Assembly: GCF_018417595.1 (NCBI RefSeq)
Contig: NZ_CP070982.1
Span: 4,515,001 to 4,579,000 of the forward strand
Length of the DNA: 64,000 nt
Source of the DNA: Pseudomonas entomophila
GTDB taxonomy: Bacteria; Pseudomonadota; Gammaproteobacteria; Pseudomonadales; Pseudomonadaceae
Direction of reading: 5' to 3'
Part shown: positions 9,486 to 30,346 of the stretch, piece by piece
Numbering within the stretch: the first letter of the stretch is position 1
Layout: the number at the start of each line of letters is the position of its first letter
The notes under the pieces: model-generated
What the model was told of the DNA's origin: nothing
Databases searched by the model: none
The model's input: the letters and a program-made list of their open reading frames with translations, nothing else
Translations under genes and position numbers: made by a program

Positions 9486-10553
9486 TCAATAACCGGCGTC
9501 GGCGTCAGCCATGTCGTCGGCATCGGCTTCGGCGGCAGCTGCCTTGGCGGCTGCGGCTACGGCGCCAGAGGTCAGCAGCTTCTCGCGGATCTGCTTCTCG
9601 ATCTCGCCGCCAATAGCCGGGTTCTCTTGCAGGTACTTGGCGGCGTTGGCTTTGCCCTGACCGATCTTGTTGCCCTGGTAGCTGTACCAGGCACCGGACT
9701 TTTCCACCAGGCCTTGAGCCACGCCCAGGTCGATGATCTCGCCGTTGCGGTAGATACCCTTGCCATAGAGGATCTGGAACTCGGCCTGGCGGAACGGTGG
9801 CGAGACCTTGTTCTTGACGATCTTGACGCGGGTTTCGCTGCCGACCACCTCGTCGCCTTCCTTGACCGCGCCGGTACGGCGGATGTCCAGGCGCACCGAG
9901 GCGTAGAACTTCAGGGCGTTACCGCCGGTGGTGGTTTCCGGGCTGCCGAACATCACGCCGATCTTCATGCGGATCTGGTTGATGAAGATGACCAGGCAGT
10001 TGGCGTTCTTGATATTGCCGGTGATCTTGCGCAGGGCCTGGGACATCAGGCGGGCCTGCAGGCCGACGTGCATGTCGCCCATCTCGCCTTCGATCTCGGC
10101 CTTCGGTACCAGTGCGGCTACGGAGTCGACGATGATCACGTCGACCGCGTTCGAGCGCACCAGCATGTCGGTGATTTCCAGGGCCTGTTCGCCGGTGTCC
10201 GGCTGGGAGACCAGCAGGTCGTCGACGTTGACGCCCAGCTTGCCGGCGTATTCAGGGTCGAGGGCGTGTTCGGCGTCGACGAAGGCGCAGGTGGCGCCGT
10301 TCTTCTGGGCTTCGGCGATGACCGACAGCGTCAGCGTGGTTTTACCGGAGGATTCCGGGCCGTAGATCTCGACGATACGGCCCTTGGGCAGGCCGCCGAT
10401 GCCGAGGGCGATGTCCAGGCCCAGGGAACCGGTGGAGATGGCGGGGATGGCCTGGCGCTCGTGATCGCCCATGCGCATGACGGCGCCCTTGCCGAATTGG
10501 CGTTCGATTTGACCCAGGGCCGCAGCCAAGGCGCGCTTCTTGTTGTCGTCCAT
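9486..10553 (-). CDS. recA: Recombinase RecA
   Basis: 355 residues, the usual Pseudomonas RecA length. Walker A 'GPESSGKT' is at residues 65-72; the DNA-binding loops include '[18 protein letters not shown]'. RecA filaments on single-stranded DNA carry out homologous recombination and act as co-protease for LexA and phage-type repressors. That is relevant here because an S24-type repressor controls the neighbouring tailocin locus. The ATG at 10553 starts MDDNKKRAL; a longer open frame upstream runs through the promoter and into cinA antisense. SOS-induced through the operator at 10597. Confidence 0.98.
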
Positions 10554-10596
10554 TGAAATCCTCACGTGATCGACTTGGCCCTGACGGCCGGAACAA

Positions 10597-10612
10597 CTGT
10601 ATAAGTAGCCAG
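10597..10612 (-). promoter_or_regulatory. LexA (SOS) box of recA
   Basis: CTG-TATAAGTAGC-CAG matches the CTG-N10-CAG core of the gamma-proteobacterial LexA operator, 44 bp upstream of the recA ATG and overlapping the expected promoter. The flanks (AA...TA) extend the match. Confidence 0.85.
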
Positions 10613-10657
10613 TATTATTCCACAGGGATTCGTTTCCGCAAACCCCCACCGGGCGAT

Positions 10658-11140
10658 TTACTCCGCGCCAAGCTGTAACAAGCCGTCTAGCGCGGCGATC
10701 ACCGTCTGTCGGCGCACCGCTTCGCGGTCGCCGTCGAAGTGGCGGCGCTTGCTGATCACGCGCCCGCCGTCGGCCCAGGCCAGCCATACGGTGCCCACCG
10801 GCTTGGCCGGCGAGCCGCCGTCGGGCCCGGCCACGCCGCTGACCGCCACGGCGAAGCGCGCGCCACTGGCCGCCTGGGCACCACGCACCATCGCTTCGAC
10901 CACTTCCTGGCTGACTGCGCCCACCTGGGCGAACAACGGTTCGGGCACCCCCAGTTGACGGGTCTTCTGGGTGTTGGAGTAGGTGACATAGCCGGCTTCG
11001 AACCAAGCCGAGCTGCCAGGGATACGAGTGATGGCCTCGGCGATGCCGCCGCCGGTGCAGGATTCGGCGGTGCTCACCTGGGCGTTCAAGCGACGCAGGT
11101 GTTCGCCCAGGCGGGTGGAAAGCGCAGTGATCGGGTCCAT
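10658..11140 (-). CDS. cinA: CinA-family nicotinamide-nucleotide amidohydrolase (PncC)
   Basis: 160 residues, corresponding to the C-terminal PncC/CinA-C domain only; this stand-alone form is normal in Pseudomonas. It deamidates NMN to nicotinate mononucleotide in pyridine nucleotide recycling. The catalytic serine lies in '[16 protein letters not shown]' (about residues 23-38), with '[11 protein letters not shown]' at about 99-109. It sits just upstream of recA in the same direction and marks one edge of the tailocin insertion, a well-known cinA/mutS hot spot in Pseudomonas. Confidence 0.93.
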
Positions 11141-14662: not shown

Positions 14663-16741
14663 TTAAAGTGCGATATGTGGGGTGTCGGCCAGTTGTACCG
14701 AGCGGGCCTGGCGCATCAGCTCTTCCAACTGGCGACGGGCGATGGCCTCCAGTTGCTGGAGCACGGACGGGTCGTCCAGGCTGTTGCTGAAGGTGACCGG
14801 CATGTTGGCGGTGAAGGTGAATTGCTGGTTGATCGGGGCTGGTGAAGCCGGGACCGGTGTTGGTTGCAAGGCGGCGGGCTGCGCGATGGGAACAGGTGAT
14901 GCAGCCGAAGCGCTGGTATTGTCGACTGGAGCAGTCCGTGCCATGGACTTCTCCCCGCGTTGTGTTCCCTCATCCTTGCCGGGGCCCGATACCAACGTTT
15001 TACCCAACCAGCCACCAACGCTTTCCCCACCCATGCTACCGAGCACACCGCCGATGAGCCCGCCAATGGCGGTACCGATGACCGGCACTACCGAGCCAAT
15101 CGCGGCACCGGCCGCAGCGCCGGCCAGGGTACCGCCCAGTCCACCGACGGCACTGCCATAACCTTCCGCCTTGGCTTGCGGCGTGGCATCACTGGCGTAG
15201 GTCTCGGCTATCTGCAAGGCGGAGTCCAGCGCCGCACCTCCAGGCACGCGCTTGAGCAGCCCCCTGGCCAACGGAAGACGTGAACTGACTGCCTTGAGAG
15301 GAGCGATCGATGACAGCGCCGATACGGCACTGCTTGCGCTTTCCACGGCAGTCGAACCGTTCGATACGGGCCCGGATGTGAGTGAAAAGCCATTGCCGTT
15401 CACCGAAGGAAGTGCCCGTATCGCCTGCCCCAACGCCGAAGAGGCCGTTGGCATTACGCCGCTGGCACTTCCTGCCGTTTGGTCTCCGGAATTAGGAGCC
15501 GCGGTAGTCGTCCCTGCCCGTCCGCCCAACGCCGAGGCAGTCGCGTCCGGCCCTTGATTGGGGGCTGGCGCCTCTTCGACCTCCTCGACTTCTTCTTCCT
15601 CTTCTTCCTCTTCTTCCTCTTCTTCCTCTTCTTCCTCTTCGATGTCTTCATCTACCGCATTGGATTGAAGCGGCTTCTGGGTGGCCCCGATACCAACGTG
15701 CGTCCCTGCACTCAGCTCAGAACGACTTGCAGAGGTGGCGGAAGCTCTGGTACCTGAAGCGCCAGCATCCTCTTGCGTGGGCTTACCGCTGAACAGCTTC
15801 AAGGTCTCGGTGCCGACGGCACCTCCGACCGCCTCGCCGAGCATGCCTCCGAACAGGCTGCCCATCTCCTTGCCCCATTTGTTGCCTTTACGACCGAACA
15901 GAGCACCAAGAGCTGCACCGGCAAGTGAGCCGCCCATCTCGCCAAAGGCAGCACCGATGCCCTGGGCTTTTTCCTCCGCCGTTCCACTGCCGGCAAGAAT
16001 GCGGCCGGATTTGACGGCAGCAGTCACCGCACCTACACCCGTTTTCTCTTTGACCGTCTCCCAAGCCTCTTGCCTTGCCTCAGGTGACTTTTTCGCCCGA
16101 CGGACGATCACCGTGCCAGCACCTCCCACCGCACCGATGGCGGCGCCAGCCACTGCAAGACCTTTCAGCGCAGATTCAGTAGTGCTCTCAAACGGCACCT
16201 TGCCAGAGAACATTTCAGGGTCGCCTGGCGGCTCTCCCTCTGGCCTGGCTGGCCTGCGCACCGATGCCCGTACCGCAGCCTCCCATTGATCGGGTGGCAG
16301 GAACGCCTGTGAGTCGATTACCTGACCGCCGTTAGGCCGGCCAGGCACGGAAATCTGCTGTGGCACTCGCCAGTCTTGTTGCAAGGCACCGAGGCCCGTG
16401 GTCCTCGATGCAGCCCCCAGCTCGACCTTGCCCAACGCCCCATAAAGCCGCAGCAAGCGCTCGAGTTCATCACCCTCTCGGCGCAACTGTTCGACCTGCC
16501 CATCTCGTGAGCGTGCGTCACTCGAGGGGGCCGCCGAATCCAGGACAGCGTTGGAGTTCGCCGTGCCCTCTGGTGCAATGACCTGCGATCCTTGCCTTCC
16601 AGGCTCGTCACCAGCACCTTCTATTGGCATCGGCCAGCCTAATGTTTGATCCGGCGCAAATTGCAGGGGATACGATTCGAACGCAGCCCCTACCACCGGA
16701 ACGACAGTGACGCCGAGGGTGAACACTTGTGTGTTCGCCAT
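14663..16741 (-). CDS. R-tailocin tape-measure protein
   Basis: 692 residues, in the P2 T position between E/E' and U. It has two glycine-zipper membrane-like regions (about 265-320 and 535-590), long Ala/Ser/Thr-rich low-complexity linkers and an unbroken run of 17 glutamates at residues 368-384. Tape measures set tail length: with roughly 0.15 nm per residue, 692 residues would correspond to a tail of about 100 nm, similar to R-pyocins. I infer the function from position, size and glycine zippers; there is no conserved tape-measure motif I can name. Confidence 0.75.
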   Translation of the reverse strand: MANTQVFTLGVTVVPVVGAAFESYPLQFAPDQTLGWPMPIEGAGDEPGRQGSQVIAPEGTANSNAVLDSAAPSSDARSRDGQVEQLRREGDELERLLRLYGALGKVELGAASRTTGLGALQQDWRVPQQISVPGRPNGGQVIDSQAFLPPDQWEAAVRASVRRPARPEGEPPGDPEMFSGKVPFESTTESALKGLAVAGAAIGAVGGAGTVIVRRAKKSPEARQEAWETVKEKTGVGAVTAAVKSGRILAGSGTAEEKAQGIGAAFGEMGGSLAGAALGALFGRKGNKWGKEMGSLFGGMLGEAVGGAVGTETLKLFSGKPTQEDAGASGTRASATSASRSELSAGTHVGIGATQKPLQSNAVDEDIEEEEEEEEEEEEEEEEEVEEVEEAPAPNQGPDATASALGGRAGTTTAAPNSGDQTAGSASGVMPTASSALGQAIRALPSVNGNGFSLTSGPVSNGSTAVESASSAVSALSSIAPLKAVSSRLPLARGLLKRVPGGAALDSALQIAETYASDATPQAKAEGYGSAVGGLGGTLAGAAAGAAIGSVVPVIGTAIGGLIGGVLGSMGGESVGGWLGKTLVSGPGKDEGTQRGEKSMARTAPVDNTSASAASPVPIAQPAALQPTPVPASPAPINQQFTFTANMPVTFSNSLDDPSVLQQLEAIARRQLEELMRQARSVQLADTPHIAL
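15592..15636. repeat. Five perfect 9-bp tandem repeats in the tape-measure gene
   Basis: CTTCTTCCT occurs five times head to tail, then degenerates on both sides. On the coding strand it encodes Glu-Glu-Glu per unit, giving the 17-Glu run. Unit loss or gain would keep frame but change tape length. Confidence 0.95.
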
Positions 16742-16754
16742 AGGTTCCTCCTTG

Positions 16755-16868
16755 TCACTCCGCCAGCCACCAGACCATGTCGCTGTACGACATGGTCATG
16801 ATTTCGCTCGCGGAAAAGTTCAGCTCCTTGGCCAGCCGCCTGGCGGCGGCCTTCTGCCGGGCGGGGTC
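16755..16868 (-). CDS. R-tailocin GpE' segment, expressed by frameshift from E
   Basis: 37 codons open from just past the E stop to a TGA at 16755-16757, in a frame +1 relative to E: it begins DPARQKAAARRLAKELNF and ends 'MSYSDMVWWLAE'. The ending fits the P2 E'/GpE family, whose signature is a Met-Ser/Thr-rich helix followed by WW. There is no start codon with a ribosome site at its beginning, so it must be made as an E-E' fusion of about 137 residues. Such long chaperone forms bind the tape measure during tail assembly. Confidence 0.75.
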   Translation of the reverse strand, partial: DPARQKAAARRLAKELNFSASEIMTMSYSDMVWWLAE

Positions 16869-16872
16869 AAAG
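16866..16872 (-). promoter_or_regulatory. Candidate programmed +1 frameshift site CUUUGAC
   Basis: On the minus strand the E gene ends GAG-CTT-TGA-C. CUU-UGA-C is the same shift site used in prfB (release factor 2), where peptidyl-tRNA-Leu slips from CUU to UUU. A +1 shift here enters the E' frame exactly. An AGGA lies 7 nt upstream of CUU, farther than the 3-nt spacing of prfB. Confidence 0.65.
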
Positions 16873-17169
16873 CTCGTCGTCCTGCACCAGGCGAAAATAG
16901 CCCGTCTGCAGGCGGCTGTAGTCCTTCAGGGCCAGGCCCTCGAGGTCCTTGACGCCGACTTCGGCGAGCGAGGCGAACAGGTTCAGTTCGCGCTGCTCGT
17001 CGTCGCTCGTACCACCGGCCTGGGCATTGCGGATGTCACGCACGGTGGGGGCGCGCAGCGACAGGCTGTCGACCTGCACGCCGTTGGCCTCGCTGGGGCG
17101 CGATAGGCGCACGGTCACGCGCTCGGCGGTGACGGTCAGCCATTGCGGAAGCTTTTTCGCTTGAGCCAT
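16867..17169 (-). CDS. R-tailocin tail assembly chaperone E (P2 gpE)
   Basis: 100 residues (MAQAKKLPQWLTVT...VQDDEL). It corresponds to the short form of the P2 E/E+E' pair by position between the tube and the tape measure and by the central 'VDSLSLRAPTVRDIRNAQ' motif of this chaperone family. The short form is more abundant and coats the tape measure. The gene ends in CTT-TGA, the shift site that gives the E+E' form. A good AGGAGA precedes the ATG. Confidence 0.85.
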   Translation of the reverse strand: MAQAKKLPQWLTVTAERVTVRLSRPSEANGVQVDSLSLRAPTVRDIRNAQAGGTSDDEQRELNLFASLAEVGVKDLEGLALKDYSRLQTGYFRLVQDDEL

Positions 17170-17181
17170 CGAGTGTTCTCC

Positions 17182-17691
17182 TTAAAGACCCAGGGCAGCG
17201 CGCTGGGCGGCCAGTTGGTCGACGCCGTCGATCACCCGCTTCATGCCCAGGGCATCGATTTCGTAGACCAGGCGGCCGTCGACTTCGAGCTTGTAGTAGG
17301 TGACGGCGACGCTGTGCTTGATCTCGGCCTTGTCGCCGGATTTCCAGTCGCCCATGTCGATCTCTTTCAGCGCGCCACGCAGGGTGACGATCACCGGGTT
17401 GATCTTGCCTTTCAGGCCCTTGAAGGCGCCGCGGAAGGTGCCGTTGAAGGCGGTGCCGTCGGCCAGGCCGAAGAACTTCAGCGACTCGCGGCGCACGCCG
17501 GTGGTGGTGAAGGCGGCTTCCTGTTTTTCCATGCCCTGGTCCATCTCGACCGGCATGTCCATGCCACCGGGGCGGTGCTCTTCCATCTTCAGGGTGAGCT
17601 TGGGCAGGGTCAGGCTGGGGACATCGCCCTGGAAGCTGACGCCATCGACGAACAGGTTCAGGTTGGCCAGGGTTTCGGGAATCATTGCCAT
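17182..17691 (-). CDS. R-tailocin tail tube protein (P2 FII)
   Basis: 169 residues, the size of P2 FII. Recognised by 'IPETLANLNLFVDGVSF' at the N-terminus and the beta-rich body with 'GPRRESLKFFGL'-like segment 'GVRRESLKFFGLADGTAF'. It polymerises into the inner tube that is driven through the target envelope on contraction. It lies 13 bp downstream of the sheath gene and precedes E, as in P2. Confidence 0.93.
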   Translation of the reverse strand: MAMIPETLANLNLFVDGVSFQGDVPSLTLPKLTLKMEEHRPGGMDMPVEMDQGMEKQEAAFTTTGVRRESLKFFGLADGTAFNGTFRGAFKGLKGKINPVIVTLRGALKEIDMGDWKSGDKAEIKHSVAVTYYKLEVDGRLVYEIDALGMKRVIDGVDQLAAQRAALGL

Positions 17692-17704: not shown

Positions 17705-18871
17705 TTAAGCAGCGGTATCGAGGACTTCGGTCAGCCACTGGTTGGTGACTTCGACGCGGAAATTGGGGTTTTCGGCAGGCGGCACATCGGTGAAGCGGAT
17801 GTTCCAGTACACCTTGCCCTGCTCCAGCTGGCTGGCGGTGTTCAGCTCCGGGTCGGCGAAGACTTCGAAGTTGATGATCGCGCCCTGGTTCTTCAGGTCG
17901 CGCATGAAGGCCTGCAGGCCCTCGGTGACGTCCTTGACGTAGGTGGCGGTGATGGAGCGGTCCACGGCCCATTTGTGGCCGTAGAGGATCGCGTCCATGA
18001 CGATGTCCATGGTGCGCACGCGGGTGACGAAGGCCCATTTCGGGTCGCTCGACAGGGTGCGGTTGCCCCACAGGCGGAAGCCGTCATCGCGGATGATGGT
18101 GGCGATGTTGGCGTTGTTCAGCAGGTTGGCGCGGCAGGTGTCGTCGCCATCGAGGAACTCCACCGCGCGGGTGGTACCGGTGATGCCGACGAACTCCTTG
18201 TTCGAAGGCGACGCCCAGAAGCCGTACTCGCGGTCGGTGTAGGCGAACAGGCCGGCGACCCAGGCCGAGCCTGGCGCGTCGACGGTGGCCTCGGCGGCGT
18301 TGTCCCAGTAGCGCACGCCCGGGTCGACCAGGAAGGCGCGCTTGGCACCGAAGTGCTTGGCGTAGGCGATGGCCGCTTCATCGGTGCTGTTCGGGCCGTC
18401 GATGATGGCGATGGCGCGCAGCTTGTCGGCCAGGGCCACCAGCGCGGTGCCCACGGCTTGGGTGGCGCTGTGCTTGGGCGCCACCAGCAGGCGTGGTTGG
18501 GCGTTGAAACGGCTCTTGCCGTCGAGCAGCGCCTGCAGGCCGGTGCGCTTGCCGTCGGCCAGCACGTTGCCGATGATCGCCGCGGTCTGCTCGGCGCCGT
18601 CTTCGAGCTTGGCCACGCCGCAGGCGACGATGACCGCCTTGGCGCGGCTGTAGATGGCACGGCAGGCCTTGGTGATCGCCGCGTCCTGGCCGAACGCCGC
18701 GACCGCTTCGCGCTCGCTGGTGATCAGGATCAGGTCGTTGGCCTTGGCGGTGACGCCCGGGCCTTCGGTGAAGGTGTCGACCAGGCCGATGATCGAGGAC
18801 GACGGCAGTGCGATGCTGCGCGCGCCGGTGTCGACGTTGGTCACGGTGACGCCGTGGAAAAAGCCACTCAT
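17705..18871 (-). CDS. R-tailocin contractile sheath protein (P2 FI)
   Basis: 388 residues, the usual length of P2-type sheaths. N-terminal 'FHGVTVTNVDTGARSIALP' and the C-terminal 'FRVEVTNQWLTEVLDTAA' are the linker arms that mesh sheath subunits; 'RLLVAPKHSATQAVG' and 'RYWDNAAEA' are family motifs. Its presence shows that this module is contractile. A terminator-type hairpin directly upstream suggests that sheath, tube, E, T, U, X and D form a separate expression unit, as in P2 where FI starts its own operon. Confidence 0.96.
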   Translation of the reverse strand: MSGFFHGVTVTNVDTGARSIALPSSSIIGLVDTFTEGPGVTAKANDLILITSEREAVAAFGQDAAITKACRAIYSRAKAVIVACGVAKLEDGAEQTAAIIGNVLADGKRTGLQALLDGKSRFNAQPRLLVAPKHSATQAVGTALVALADKLRAIAIIDGPNSTDEAAIAYAKHFGAKRAFLVDPGVRYWDNAAEATVDAPGSAWVAGLFAYTDREYGFWASPSNKEFVGITGTTRAVEFLDGDDTCRANLLNNANIATIIRDDGFRLWGNRTLSSDPKWAFVTRVRTMDIVMDAILYGHKWAVDRSITATYVKDVTEGLQAFMRDLKNQGAIINFEVFADPELNTASQLEQGKVYWNIRFTDVPPAENPNFRVEVTNQWLTEVLDTAA

Positions 18872-25731: not shown

Positions 25732-26098
25732 GTATGAACCTCGCGTCCATGTAAGGCCATTGGCTGACGACGATCTCGTACCGTGCCGGGTAGTCGAACT
25801 CGACCTCGATGACCGGTGAGTCATCGGCGGTGTACTCGACCCCATCGATGGCAATCCTGGCCCCCTCAGGAACACCCTGCAGGGAATGTCCGTCGAAGGT
25901 GACCGTCATCTCAGGACGATCGACCACCTCGCGATCCTTGACATAACGGCGCACGTCATCGGTGTCGGTGTGTTCGGGTAGGTAAAGGCAGCCAGGGTAG
26001 TGCCTGGCCGCAGCCATCGGGTCCGGCCAGGCGATCACCCGCAGGATCTGGCCGGTCGTCTTGTCGTAATCGACGATCTTGATCGTTGAAAGCAGCAT
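25715..26098 (-). CDS. Conserved F-tailocin protein after gpJ (127 aa)
   Basis: 127 residues, no signal or membrane segment. Contains 'IKIVDYDKTTGQILRVIAWP' and a small beta domain 'IAIDGVEYTADDSPVIEVEF', reminiscent of a PEGA/carbohydrate-binding-like sandwich, but I do not recognise the family. The ATG at 26098 overlaps the gpJ stop as TGATG, so translation is coupled to gpJ; it may be a chaperone or tip cap of J. Confidence 0.6.
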   Translation of the reverse strand: MLLSTIKIVDYDKTTGQILRVIAWPDPMAAARHYPGCLYLPEHTDTDDVRRYVKDREVVDRPEMTVTFDGHSLQGVPEGARIAIDGVEYTADDSPVIEVEFDYPARYEIVVSQWPYMDARFIHEDIA

Positions 26099-29000
26099 CA
26101 GCGCTGTACCTCGAGAACGGTGATGGAGCGGTTGTCGCAACTCATGGACAACCCTGTCATCGCGCTGCCATTGGGGGCGGAGAACTGCAGCCGCAGCTCG
26201 TTGTAGCCGCCATACCCGGTCAGCAGGGCCGTGGTATTGAAGCTGGAGTTGGGGCTCATGGCCGGATCGCGGCCCGCTGAGCTGCAACGCCCCTGCAGCC
26301 AGACCGCGCCATTGAGCAACACCCGCCAGAAGCACCAGCCTGTCGACATCATCCCTACCTGGGCTGAAAACGTGCAGAGCTTCTCCCAGCCATTGCTGGT
26401 AAAACCAAGCGCCTGCACCTCGACCCAATTGGGCGAGCCGTGGTTGGGCGGGCTGTTGATCTGGGCGGCGGTGTAAGCCGAGTAAGGCAAGGTGACCGAG
26501 CGCCCGGCAATCTTGAGCGTGCTCACCGACAGGTCGGTGATCTTGCCGGTGTTGACCGACAGGTCCGCGATCTTGCCGGTGGTGACAGACAAGTCCGCGA
26601 TCTTCGCCTGGGTGATCGCTGCATCGGTGATCTGAGCGTTACCGATGCTGGCGGTACCGATGATCGCGTTGTTCATGAAGACCTGGCCGTTGTTGACCGC
26701 GAACACCGACTTCGGCGCGCCCCCCGGCTGATGCATCACCGCGAACCGATCAGCCAGGAACAGCACCTGGGACTGCATCCCATCAGGCGTATTCTCGACA
26801 CCGATCCCCATGCCGGCGCTGTAGTAGCGCCCGTTCGCATCCACGCCAACCTTGATGCTGCGGGTCGCCCGTACATCACCGCCCAATTTGACCAGGGCTT
26901 CGGACGTGTCCTCTACAACGGCCTTGGTTTCGCCCACCCGAGCGGTCAAGGTCTGGTTGTCACGCGCCAGTGCCGATACATCGTCGGTCAGTGCGTCCAC
27001 CGTACGGTTGACATGGGCGAGGTTACCATCGACCTGGGCCTTGACTTCGGTTACCTGCCTTGCGATCGCCCTGTCGCCCTCGCTGAGCGCGGCATACACC
27101 GACCAGGCCCCGGCATGGGCGCCGGTTTCTCCGGCGCGCCAGCCACCCGTGGTGCCGGCCATCGATGGGCTTACTGCGCTTTCAACACCCAGTACACGGC
27201 TGGCCATGGACGTGAGTTCGCCGTTGATCTCCTCGACACTGGTCTGCACGCCATCGACGCGCACGGCCAGCGCCTTCACCTGGTCGCCCAGGGAGACATA
27301 GGCTCCCATGTTTTCCCAGTAAGTGGCGTTGGCGACGGGCGTCCCTGCCGGCACATCGCCCTTGGCCCGATACAGCTTGCCTTCATGCTTGACCAGCGAC
27401 CCGGCCAGATAGACCGTATCGGCTTTCCAGTCCGGTGCGCCAGCCAGGTCGGAGAGTTGCGTGGACAACGCGTTGAGCTGGCCTTGCAAGGCGGCATCTG
27501 CAGCCTTGAACCGCTCGCTCACCGAACCTGGGCCATCGCCACTGACCTTGCCGATCTCGCTCAGTAGCTGCTTGCCCAGGTGGCTCTCGCTGATCTTGCC
27601 GTCCAGGTACTCGAGCACCGCCGAAGCATCCGCGCTCGACTGGCCGTAGACCCATTCGGACCATGGGCCGATGTTGCCGGTACGGTCCACCAGCCGCGCA
27701 CGGAAGTAACGCACCACCGCCGCGGCCATGCCCGAGTGCAGGTAGGTTGAAGTCGGGTAGGCGAACCGGCCAAGCGCGATCGGATTCTGCCCGGTGCTTT
27801 CGGACGCCATCTCGATCTGTGTGTACGCCGTATCCTCGGCGCCCTCGGGGAAGCCCCACGCCAATCGAATGGCGAAGATTTCCGATACTGGCCGCAGGAA
27901 CGCCACCGCAGGCGGGGCGCCTTCCTTGCCCTTGAGCGCGGTCAACATGGACAAGCGCCAGATCGAGGTGATCTCGCTCACGCTGATCGAGCGCACCCGG
28001 GCCAGATAGGCGCCAGCATAGATACCGACGACATCGACACTGGTGGCCCCGGTGCGCGGCAGGCTGATCCAGTTGCCGTCATCCTTGCGCCATTCCACCT
28101 CGTAAGCCACCGCGCCGGAAACCGCCGGCCAGGTGATGGTCAGGGTACTGACCGCCAGGCCCTGGCTGATGGCATGGCTGCTGGAGAGGCTGACGCTGGC
28201 CGGAGGCGGCACGAGGTTGATCGGCGTGACGCTGATCGGCCGCTCCTGCAGGCGCGCACCGGTGTCGATGTGGTCGAACTTGCTCGGGTCATACTGCACC
28301 GCGTTGATTTCGTAGATACCTGGTTCAGGGCGCGAAACACTGGTGACGCGGTACAGTGGGATGGCCAGCTCCGGCGCATCCAGGGCCCAAACCAGCTCGG
28401 CACGCGGCTTGCGGGAGTACGCGGTGGTGAGGGTTATCCGCCGCCCGACGACCGCCTCGATGGTGCGCCCTTCGCAGGTGCCATCCGGCAGGTTGAGAAT
28501 CAACCGGTCCCCAGGCTTGGCCTGGGTGTCGCGATCCAGGGTGACCTGCCGGGCAAAGCCTGTGACGAGGCGTCCGCCGACCGGGCGACCGGCCAGCAGT
28601 TCGTCGGCCACCGGGATGACGTAGCCGGGCAAGGGAATACGCCCGTCCATACCGACCCGGAAGCTGATGCCGCGGTCGCGCGAGTTGGTCAGCAGCGCCC
28701 ATTTTCCGCGGCGCTGCGCTTCGGACTCGCGGGTACAGCCAATGGCACTGAGTTCCAGCGGGTTGTCGCCGTAGCGGCGCAACAGCTTGTCGTCGGCGAC
28801 CACGGTGACATCGGTGTCGTAGTTGTTCAGTGGGTTGTCGTAGCTGACCAGCACACGGCTGTAGCGGCTGCGCTCGGAACCACTGGAATAGATGAACTTG
28901 CCGTCGACCACGTTGGCGCGGGTGTAGGCAAAGTCGAAATCGGTTGCCCGAGGCATGTCGGCCAGGCTGTACAGCTGGCCCTGGGCCCAGTAGGTCATGC

Positions 29001-30075
29001 CGCGGTAGATGCCGGCGATGTCGCGCAGCAGTGACCAGGCCTCGGCCTTGCCCTGCAGGTTGAGGTTGCAGGTGAAGCGCGGCTCCTGGCCACCCCGGCC
29101 ATCGGGCACCAGCTGGTCGCAGTACTGGGCGATCCGGTACAGCTCCCACTTGTCGACCATCCACGGCTTGATCCGCCGGCCCAAACCAAAGCGATCGTTG
29201 GTGGTGATGCCGTAGGTGACCCAGGCCGGGTTGTCGGTCCAGGCCTGCTTGAAGGTACCGTCCCAGACGCCCACGTAGCGGCGGGTCTCAGGATCGTAGT
29301 TGCTCGGCACCGGCCATTTGCGCCCCTTGCACTCGACCGTCACCGCCGGGATGTTGCGGAACTGCTCGGCGGAGAACTCCACGTACAGCAATGCGGTGTT
29401 GGGGTAGCGCAGTTTGGCGTCGATGACCTCGGTGATGCCGGCGATCTGCATGGTGTCGGCGATCTTGCCGGTGCTCTGGTTGGGCGTCAGGCGGCGTACG
29501 CGCAGGCTCCAACCGTGCTCGGCCTTGGGCAGGTCGATACGCCGGGTGCGCTCGTAGGTGCTGGTGCTCTTGCCATGCACGGCATCCTTGAGCACCTCCA
29601 CGTAGGCACCACCATCGGTGGCCACATCCACGGCGTATTCGATGCGGTAGCCGTTGACGTTGCCGGCGCTGTCCATGGCCTGCAACGCGGGCCAGGCGAA
29701 GCGCAGGCGTACCGCCGACAGGCGGGTGTCGTCGAGCGCGCGCACCCAGGGCTTGTCATGGCGCAACTCCACGCCCTGGGTGATTTCGTTGTCCACCGAC
29801 GGGATACCGGGAATGTGCGGCTGCTCAAGCGAACCTGGGCGCCACTCCCACTTGACCCCCGGGAAGTTGTAGCTGCCATTGGCATCCATCAGCGGCGTGC
29901 CGTCCAGATAGATGTCCTGGGCGCTCGGTGTACCGGCGAATTCTCCCTCACCGACGGCGATGAGCATCTTGGCGATGGCGACGGAGCGCAGGCTGTCGGG
30001 GGCCTCGACCGGTGCCTTTGGCTGTTTCTGACCACCTTTGCGACCGGTGATCACGGGTCTGTTGGTTTCGCCCAT
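26098..30075 (-). CDS. F-tailocin central tail tip / host specificity protein J (lambda gpJ)
   Basis: 1325 residues, similar in size to lambda J (1132). N-terminal 'KMLIAVGEGEFAGTPSAQDI' and 'IDAKLRYPNTALLYVEFSAE' are typical of the J hub domains; 'LLRDIAGIYRGMTYWAQGQL' (about 410-430) and fibronectin-III-like segments (about 690-880) follow, then a long helical stalk (about 950-1150) and a beta tip with near-identical repeats (IADLSVTTGK, IADLSVNTGK, ITDLSVSTLK). It seals the tail tip and determines receptor binding. CCTGGAGGAACCC fixes the ATG at 30075. A hairpin lies just upstream. Confidence 0.92.
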   Translation of the reverse strand: MGETNRPVITGRKGGQKQPKAPVEAPDSLRSVAIAKMLIAVGEGEFAGTPSAQDIYLDGTPLMDANGSYNFPGVKWEWRPGSLEQPHIPGIPSVDNEITQGVELRHDKPWVRALDDTRLSAVRLRFAWPALQAMDSAGNVNGYRIEYAVDVATDGGAYVEVLKDAVHGKSTSTYERTRRIDLPKAEHGWSLRVRRLTPNQSTGKIADTMQIAGITEVIDAKLRYPNTALLYVEFSAEQFRNIPAVTVECKGRKWPVPSNYDPETRRYVGVWDGTFKQAWTDNPAWVTYGITTNDRFGLGRRIKPWMVDKWELYRIAQYCDQLVPDGRGGQEPRFTCNLNLQGKAEAWSLLRDIAGIYRGMTYWAQGQLYSLADMPRATDFDFAYTRANVVDGKFIYSSGSERSRYSRVLVSYDNPLNNYDTDVTVVADDKLLRRYGDNPLELSAIGCTRESEAQRRGKWALLTNSRDRGISFRVGMDGRIPLPGYVIPVADELLAGRPVGGRLVTGFARQVTLDRDTQAKPGDRLILNLPDGTCEGRTIEAVVGRRITLTTAYSRKPRAELVWALDAPELAIPLYRVTSVSRPEPGIYEINAVQYDPSKFDHIDTGARLQERPISVTPINLVPPPASVSLSSSHAISQGLAVSTLTITWPAVSGAVAYEVEWRKDDGNWISLPRTGATSVDVVGIYAGAYLARVRSISVSEITSIWRLSMLTALKGKEGAPPAVAFLRPVSEIFAIRLAWGFPEGAEDTAYTQIEMASESTGQNPIALGRFAYPTSTYLHSGMAAAVVRYFRARLVDRTGNIGPWSEWVYGQSSADASAVLEYLDGKISESHLGKQLLSEIGKVSGDGPGSVSERFKAADAALQGQLNALSTQLSDLAGAPDWKADTVYLAGSLVKHEGKLYRAKGDVPAGTPVANATYWENMGAYVSLGDQVKALAVRVDGVQTSVEEINGELTSMASRVLGVESAVSPSMAGTTGGWRAGETGAHAGAWSVYAALSEGDRAIARQVTEVKAQVDGNLAHVNRTVDALTDDVSALARDNQTLTARVGETKAVVEDTSEALVKLGGDVRATRSIKVGVDANGRYYSAGMGIGVENTPDGMQSQVLFLADRFAVMHQPGGAPKSVFAVNNGQVFMNNAIIGTASIGNAQITDAAITQAKIADLSVTTGKIADLSVNTGKITDLSVSTLKIAGRSVTLPYSAYTAAQINSPPNHGSPNWVEVQALGFTSNGWEKLCTFSAQVGMMSTGWCFWRVLLNGAVWLQGRCSSAGRDPAMSPNSSFNTTALLTGYGGYNELRLQFSAPNGSAMTGLSMSCDNRSITVLEVQR

Positions 30076-30095
30076 GGGTTCCTCCAGGCGTAAAA

Positions 30096-30116
30096 AAACC
30101 GCCTTCATGGCGGTTT
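30096..30116 (-). terminator. Terminator-like hairpin between the first fibre cassette and gpJ
   Basis: AAACCGCC-ATGAA-GGCGGTTT followed by TTTT on the minus strand, immediately before the gpJ ribosome site. It is inside the operon and may reduce J relative to the tube. Confidence 0.65.
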
Positions 30117-30133
30117 GCTGTGCACCGGCGGCA

Positions 30134-30346
30134 TCACGCCAAGGTGTCGATTCGCTCACGGGCCTCGGCACGTTGGCGGGTGATTTCCTCGGGGATGACC
30201 TTGCCGGTTTCAAGCAGGCGCACCACGTACCAGTCCGTATCCTGCAACAGGCGAACATCTTCGGCCCGGCGGCTGTTGCGCATGGCCTCGTCCTGCCGCG
30301 CCTGTTGCGCCTCGGCCGTCAAGGCCTGGCTGAAATCAATGTTCAT
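30134..30346 (-). CDS. Small tail assembly chaperone-like protein (70 aa)
   Basis: 70 residues, helical, ending 'DTDWYVVRLLETGKVIPEEI' and 'TRQRAEARERIDTLA'. The 'DTDWYV..L' segment followed by an Arg/Glu helix is the C-terminal pattern of phage tail assembly chaperones. It overlaps the upstream 110-residue gene by 11 bp and is the third member of the fibre cassette between gpI and gpJ. Confidence 0.65.
   Translation of the reverse strand: MNIDFSQALTAEAQQARQDEAMRNSRRAEDVRLLQDTDWYVVRLLETGKVIPEEITRQRAEARERIDTLA

Follow-up and report, generated by a model that had tools for sequence, protein, structure and literature searches.

Several described tail assembly chaperone loci encode a short protein and a longer, frameshifted form of it between the tail tube and tape measure genes. 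Frameshifting at these loci is thought to hold the ratio of the two proteins, and phages are described as using -1, -2 or +1 shifts (PMC5009743). The locus analyzed here would use +1, whereas lambda gpG/gpGT is a -1 system and Mu gpG/gpGT a -2 system (PMC5009743, PMC3498833). Among the closest known systems is the P2 E/E+E' pair, which has the gene order FI, FII, E, E', T and slips -1 on T_TTT_TTG.

Two other kinds of +1 site are relevant. Work on influenza A PA-X, which shifts at UCC_UUU_CGU, mapped the shift to UUU_C, noted that the E-site codon affects it, and predicted that such UUU_C sites form a class whose A- and E-site codons are restricted (PMC3498833); plant amalgavirus +1 sites have UUU_CGN in common with it (PMC3498833, PMC5052127). 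In prfB, which encodes release factor 2 (RF2), the SD-like AGGGGG is reported as hyper-conserved and the stop codon as RF2-readable in 100% of genomes surveyed (PMC12421855). A proposed UUU_UGG shift site in yopN, which was not upheld by mutation, counsels caution (PMC3789692). Our searches of the open-licence literature turned up no paper that reports +1 shifting for the chaperone of a pyocin or of a Pseudomonas tailocin.

The E/E' locus and its relatives

We analyzed a stretch of 64,000 nucleotides of Pseudomonas entomophila DNA, here called the window. Its minus strand carries recA (9486-11006), gpD, gpU, the tape measure gene, E', E, the tail tube and sheath genes, the tail fibre gene, Tail_P2_I and the baseplate J and V genes. 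The gene set fits an R-type tailocin cluster, from which we infer the name tailocin. E lies between the tail tube gene and a tape measure gene recognized by its position, as in a P2-type E/E+E' pair. Consistent with the preliminary description, which had proposed an E/E' chaperone pair at this place, the PF10109 match of E adjoins the tail tube and sheath genes (Table 1).

Two neighboring genes have features of their own. The tape measure gene has the SD sequence AAGGAGG before its ATG and returned no specific tape-measure match in Pfam; it encodes a run of 17 Glu, and its GC3 of 0.63 is low relative to its neighbors. Further along, beyond the baseplate J and V genes, a gene for a lambda gpJ-like tail tip protein (26098-30258) neighbors the P2-type module. 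Its CBM_5_12 match falls narrowly short of the cut-off, and it is perhaps part of an F-type tail cluster adjoining the R-type one.

Table 1. Features of the E/E' junction and the adjoining tail genes (window positions)
Feature	Position	Strand	Remarks
Tape measure protein gene	14663..16741	-	Directly downstream of E'; assigned by position
E' stop codon TGA	16755..16757	-	
E' (+1 frame), counted from the proposed site	16758..16892	-	AWCRTTSFDPARQKAAARRLAKELNFSASEIMTMSYSDMVWWLAE, 45 aa; E+E' would be 137 aa
CTTTGAC (last codon of E, stop and next base)	16866..16872	-	+1 frame reads (x)-Phe-Asp
E, tail assembly chaperone, 100 aa	16867..17169	-	PF10109, E-value 8.8e-22; 0-frame product ends ...GYF-RLVQDDEL-stop
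E stop codon TGA	16869-16867	-	
AGGA, 7 nt before CTT	16880..16883	-	Not conserved in relatives
Base C skipped in the proposed +1 shift	16893..16893	-	Opens the 0-frame codon CGC
Proposed shift codon TTT (Phe92)	16894..16896	-	Eight codons upstream of CTT-TGA
TAT, E-site codon at the proposed shift	16897..16899	-	
Tail tube FII	17182..17691	-	PF04985
Tail sheath FI	17705..18871	-	PF04984

The E gene ends GGC TAT TTT CGC CTG GTG CAG GAC GAC GAG CTT TGA CCC, with the letters and frames that the preliminary description gave for GAG-CTT-TGA-C. The +1 frame translates as DPARQKAAARRLAKELNFSASEIMTMSYSDMVWWLAE up to its stop codon, and the -1 frame as LTPPGRRPPPGGWPRS, which contains no E'-like peptide. 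A shift into +1, or the equivalent -2, is thus needed to reach E', unlike in P2. The E' of the window has no match to PF06528 (P2 E'), and Pfam and PHROG scans of E' alone returned nothing above chance.

Genome contigs supplied 67 related loci, and viral contigs another 80, out of 217 viral relatives. A survey of 398 genomes of the genus, 116 with a match, contributed the matches listed and 98 further places. To these we added 80 of the 185 relatives of an R-pyocin-like record, the relatives of L363 (family f20) and wider samples. The earlier of these sets gave 262 unique junctions; the whole set gave 349 unique E genes, 348 of which were aligned. In some Pseudomonas loci (L224, L228, L232, L233, L236, L238-L246, L248, L250, L251, L253, L254, L264 and L280), a single open frame of at least about 200 codons holds two tandem E domains, and E' follows the second of them; the product may be a covalent E-E chaperone. 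Wolbachia phage WO records contain an E about 40% identical to the f20-type E.

We found a WW-containing E' in the +1 frame at 255 of the 262 unique junctions, which argues that the +1 peptide is not a chance reading. The seven others are four -1 phages (L179, L181, L182 and L183), two loci that run off their contigs (L074 and L125) and L334, which has no E'. Of the 349 unique E genes in the whole set, 314 have in +1 the conserved E'-type peptide that the preliminary description had picked out by its WWLAE ending; 10 have it in -1 and 25 lack the WW motif in either frame. Of the situations that, according to the preliminary description, would refute a +1 shift, we encountered none within the +1 clade: no 0-frame WW was present in the 104 loci examined. 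Two of the 314 also have a WW in the -1 frame. The E' frame is -1 in phages Mica, Mano, ep3, FoX1 and Persinger, and P2 is annotated as -1. In hhalign comparisons, whose sets omit three minus rows (L334, L377 and L380), the window-type E' scored 97.5% local and 96% global against the WW-type -1 E', a strong match, and 58% local and 5% global against the P2-like E', a weak one. Judged by these comparisons, E' is a conserved coding stretch in the +1 frame, and the tailocin chaperone gene very likely does undergo +1 frameshifting.

TTT_C at one aligned codon across the +1 clade

We observed that the protein-alignment column of Phe92 holds TTT_C in 307 of 314 unique +1-type genes, while the 7 others have TTT_C one codon along. 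Counted by cluster, the motif is present in 137/137 +1-type clusters (one codon along in 4), so that in these alignments TTT_C is fixed at a single aligned codon throughout the +1 clade; elsewhere in these genes, 61 of 200 Phe codons are TTT. The codon that follows is CGN in 307/314 genes (CGC 216, CGA 47, CGT 39, CGG 5), with CTG in the remaining 7. Arg is encoded here most often by CGC, which is also common in E, so no hungry codon is evident. A Tyr codon before TTT is TAT in 71 of 89 cases, as against 20 of 116 elsewhere in the same genes. This preference, together with the TCC that precedes TTT in the f20 group, fits the UUU_C class predicted from PA-X. In the window, TAT_TTT_CGC at 16899-16891 (TATTTTCGCC) occurs once against 0.02 expected, for a pattern picked after it had been noticed.

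The +1 frame is open from this in-frame TTT_C to E' at 255/255 unique junctions, a count that demanded only 12 open codons before WW. The stop codon of E is found anywhere from 6 to 30 codons downstream of TTT. Overlap and codon tallies used rows chosen for TTT_C and an open +1 frame (256/262 junctions; 94/99 representatives, the other five being the four -1 phages and L334), so the values of 94/94 for TTT, 0/94 for stops and 38-41 codons for the TTT-to-WW distance are partly built in by the choice of rows. If E codons were drawn freely, 6.4 closed +1 frames would be expected in the 94 representatives; upstream control windows gave observed/expected stop counts of 1/2.4, 42/46.6, 18/25.5 and 56/53.2.

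Substitution patterns offer a separate view of where +1 coding begins. In the f20 group (42 distinct sequences, without CTT-TGA), nearest-neighbor changes upstream of TTT fall 9/5/94 at 0-frame positions 1/2/3, and those in the eight codons after CGA fall 17/6/4. The excess at 0-frame first positions points to +1 coding, since these are the third positions of the +1 frame. The phase thus switches at TTT_CGA (Fisher P about 4e-11, for pairs that are related and not independent); TTT and CGA are unchanged in 42/42 sequences, and TCC precedes TTT in 36/42.

The two other groups show the switch less sharply. Window-like genes (211 sequences) lie between f20 and the R-pyocin-like group, with changes of 45/11/58 in the overlap against 288/120/728 upstream: still mainly 0-frame, with third-position changes per codon dropping from about 24 to 8, which is what reading of both frames would produce. 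The 21 sequences of the R-pyocin-like group show changes of 6/8/19 in the eight codons that follow the site, resembling the upstream region (16/9/56), and the +1 pattern appears only further on (27/17/17). The first eight E' residues of this group may be a weakly constrained linker, or the ribosome may shift at a later point; in Pseudomonas, these eight codons could thus fall outside E+E'. As a separate observation, the E' frame of the R-pyocin-like loci L178 and L283-L302 often has an ATG just after the shift region (RMRQLARRL, RMRELARRL or LMRQLARRL).

Taken together, we put the probability at roughly 0.8 that the main slip site is TAT_TTT_CGC (TTT at 16896-16894), where a P-site +1 slip would yield the 137-aa E+E', and that E and E+E' serve as the pair of assembly chaperones for a contractile tail of P2 type, here an R-type tailocin. 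Re-pairing of tRNA-Phe from UUU to UUC is favorable. We infer the following course for the window, including the choice of Phe92, the P-site slippage, its direction (+1, not -2), its rate and the function of the product. Most ribosomes would read E through to its TGA. A minority would slip at TAT_TTT_CGC, where peptidyl-tRNA-Phe (anticodon GAA) would leave UUU and re-pair on UUC; reading would resume at GCC, joining E' (AWCRTTSF-DPAR...WWLAE) after Phe92. By analogy with lambda gpG/gpGT, E+E' would link the tape measure protein to tail tube subunits.

We also considered additional signals and other products around the site. In the window and in some relatives, though not generally, TAT_TTT_C sits in the loop of a strong hairpin (CCTGCA...TGCAGG, 11 pairs, 16881-16912); this hairpin was rejected as a shift signal on the loss of its pairs in many relatives. 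Mean z over 54 representatives was -0.3 for upstream and -0.5 for spanning structure (window, -1.2 and -2.8), and downstream structure was rejected at mean z values of +0.4 and -0.15; no conserved RNA structure around the site was found over these 54. Transcriptional slippage was set aside on the T run in TATTTTCG, which has only 4 T, a length judged too short for such slippage. A -1 product at TAT_TTT was likewise rejected, as the -1 frame holds no E'-like product.

Other routes to E'

The alternative that fares best keeps the TTT_C site and adds the end of E as a second one: UUU_C would be the ancestral main site in the window's clade, and CTT_TGA_C would have been added later to capture ribosomes that had not shifted. 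The window and most window-like genes have both motifs. A slip at CTT-TGA-C would enter the same frame and give a product of the same length (137 aa), so it may supplement the shift in the window's clade or even take its place, and CTT outnumbers GTT before the stop (134 against 64 in the class of 224 junctions whose E' starts at the E stop). The choice of CTT or GTT is, however, also explained by the Leu or Val of E, there is no conserved SD-like element, and a helper role would look the same as coding constraint. We regard joint activity of the two sites as rather unlikely. From these alignments, TAT_TTT_CGC is most likely the better site of the two, with a helper role for CTT_TGA possible in the window's clade.

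The preliminary description had proposed CTTTGAC itself as the slip site, with a chaperone ratio that could depend on the RF2 level; in such a model, peptidyl-tRNA-Leu would move from CUU to UUU while RF2 is slow, and the E+E' ratio would sense RF2. The letters are there, although CTTTGAC alone is unremarkable in the window (5 occurrences against 5.55 expected). In the class of 224 junctions, NTT precedes the stop in 204 and C or T follows it in 221. The NTT count is beyond chance, as within these genes 4.7% of Leu codons are CTT and 8.3% of Val codons are GTT. In window-like and R-pyocin-like genes, moreover, codons between TTT and the DDE-L of E still change mainly at 0-frame third positions, as this model would have it.

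Alignment of the junction in relatives nevertheless divided the earlier proposal: E' stays in the +1 frame, whereas the NTT-stop is not universal and TTT_C is. An NTT-stop is present in 204 of 255 unique +1-type junctions and missing from 51. Relatives with the same E' have GAC-TAA, GAA-TAA, GAG-TAA, AGC-TGA, CTG-TAA or GTG-TAA at the stop, or no stop there, which counts against slippage at the stop because P-site re-pairing at such codons is poor or impossible. In f20, 21 codons separate TTT from the stop of E, which falls within the E' domain, and a slip at that stop would lose much of E'. The model also leaves the fixed TTT_C without explanation.

A link between the chaperone ratio and RF2 fares no better. 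RF2 does not read TAG, and the stop is TAG in 3 and TAA in 55 of the 224 junctions. The AGGA noted earlier does stand 7 nt before CTT, not 3 nt as in prfB, and this stretch (CAG GAC) alternates with CAA GAC, CGC GAC and others in relatives; no SD-like AGGGGG 3 nt before CTTT is conserved among them. The host genome's own prfB reads GGGG-TAT-CTTTGA, and the stricter pattern AGGGGGNNNCTTTGAC had no match. The junction thus shares with prfB the letters CTT_TGA_C at the end of E and differs in its spacing, its stop codons and the source of those letters, which E'-frame codons explain. Read in the E' frame, NTT_TGA_C gives Phe-Asp (TTT GAC), TAA gives Asn and CTG-T gives Cys. In 77 of 94 representatives the E'-frame codon shares its third base with the stop of E (69 Phe, 8 Cys); in the 17 in which it is free of the stop, it encodes Phe in 6 (TTC in 6/6), Cys in 2 and other residues in 9. 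Conservation of NTT_TGA_C therefore indicates an E' residue that is often kept, and need not mark a slip site. We judge an RF2-type slip as the source of E+E' to be very improbable.

A -2 shift would reach the same frame as +1, and Mu gpGT is described as a -2 product (PMC3498833). It would place tRNA-Phe on ATT, ACT or CCT depending on the relative, however, whereas UUU to UUC fits +1 and the conserved base is the C after TTT, so that a -2 shift has very little to recommend it. Production of E' from an internal start, rather than as a fusion, is scarcely credible: R-pyocin-like genes do have an ATG in the E' frame, but the first Met of the window's E' is residue 32 of 45, +1 constraint in f20 begins at TTT_C, and the product is annotated as a fusion in the records of P2, Mica and Mano.

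Direction of the shift within the family

A +1 slip at TTT_C places this locus beside known systems in different respects. It shares with P2 the gene pair, its order and an aligned Phe TTT slip codon, but the slip would be +1 on TTT_CGC instead of -1 on a U-rich heptamer. It shares UUU_CGN with the influenza and amalgavirus sites, and f20 even has UCC_UUU_CGA; it differs from them in its bacterial ribosome, in the tail chaperone it serves, in an E-site codon that is mostly UAU in Pseudomonas and in the 7/314 genes with UUU_CUG.

P2 and most -1 types have their slippery TTT, usually NNT_TTT_T, in the Phe92 column as well; the codon proposed for the +1 slip is the one that serves the backward slip of related phages. 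A 74-row tree unites the 45 +1 rows and L334 in one group with support of 100/99, although it draws on few columns and leaves 32 of 71 inner branches open. L334 (viral contig IMGVR_UViG_2648501913_000006) has an R-pyocin-like E with TTC_ATG in place of TTT_CGC and no detectable E'; its site and extension seem to have been lost together. The same genus contains P2-like genes with U-runs and a -1 reading (L389 and L391), which indicates that the host does not dictate the direction of the shift.

From these comparisons, one clade seems to have turned its shift from -1 to +1 at a Phe codon, on the UUU_CGN motif known from influenza PA-X. Probably, a single ancestral tail module, now found in Pseudomonas tailocins, R-pyocin-like clusters and f20 phage-like elements, reversed its shift as NNU_UUU_UUG became UAU/UCC_UUU_CGN, which would make it a bacterial member of the UUU_C class predicted from PA-X. 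On this reading, an E+E' protein should also be made from one R-pyocin-like cluster for which the 0-frame gene alone is annotated. If the direction did flip within one family at a homologous codon, the steps between -1 and +1 sites would be directly comparable.
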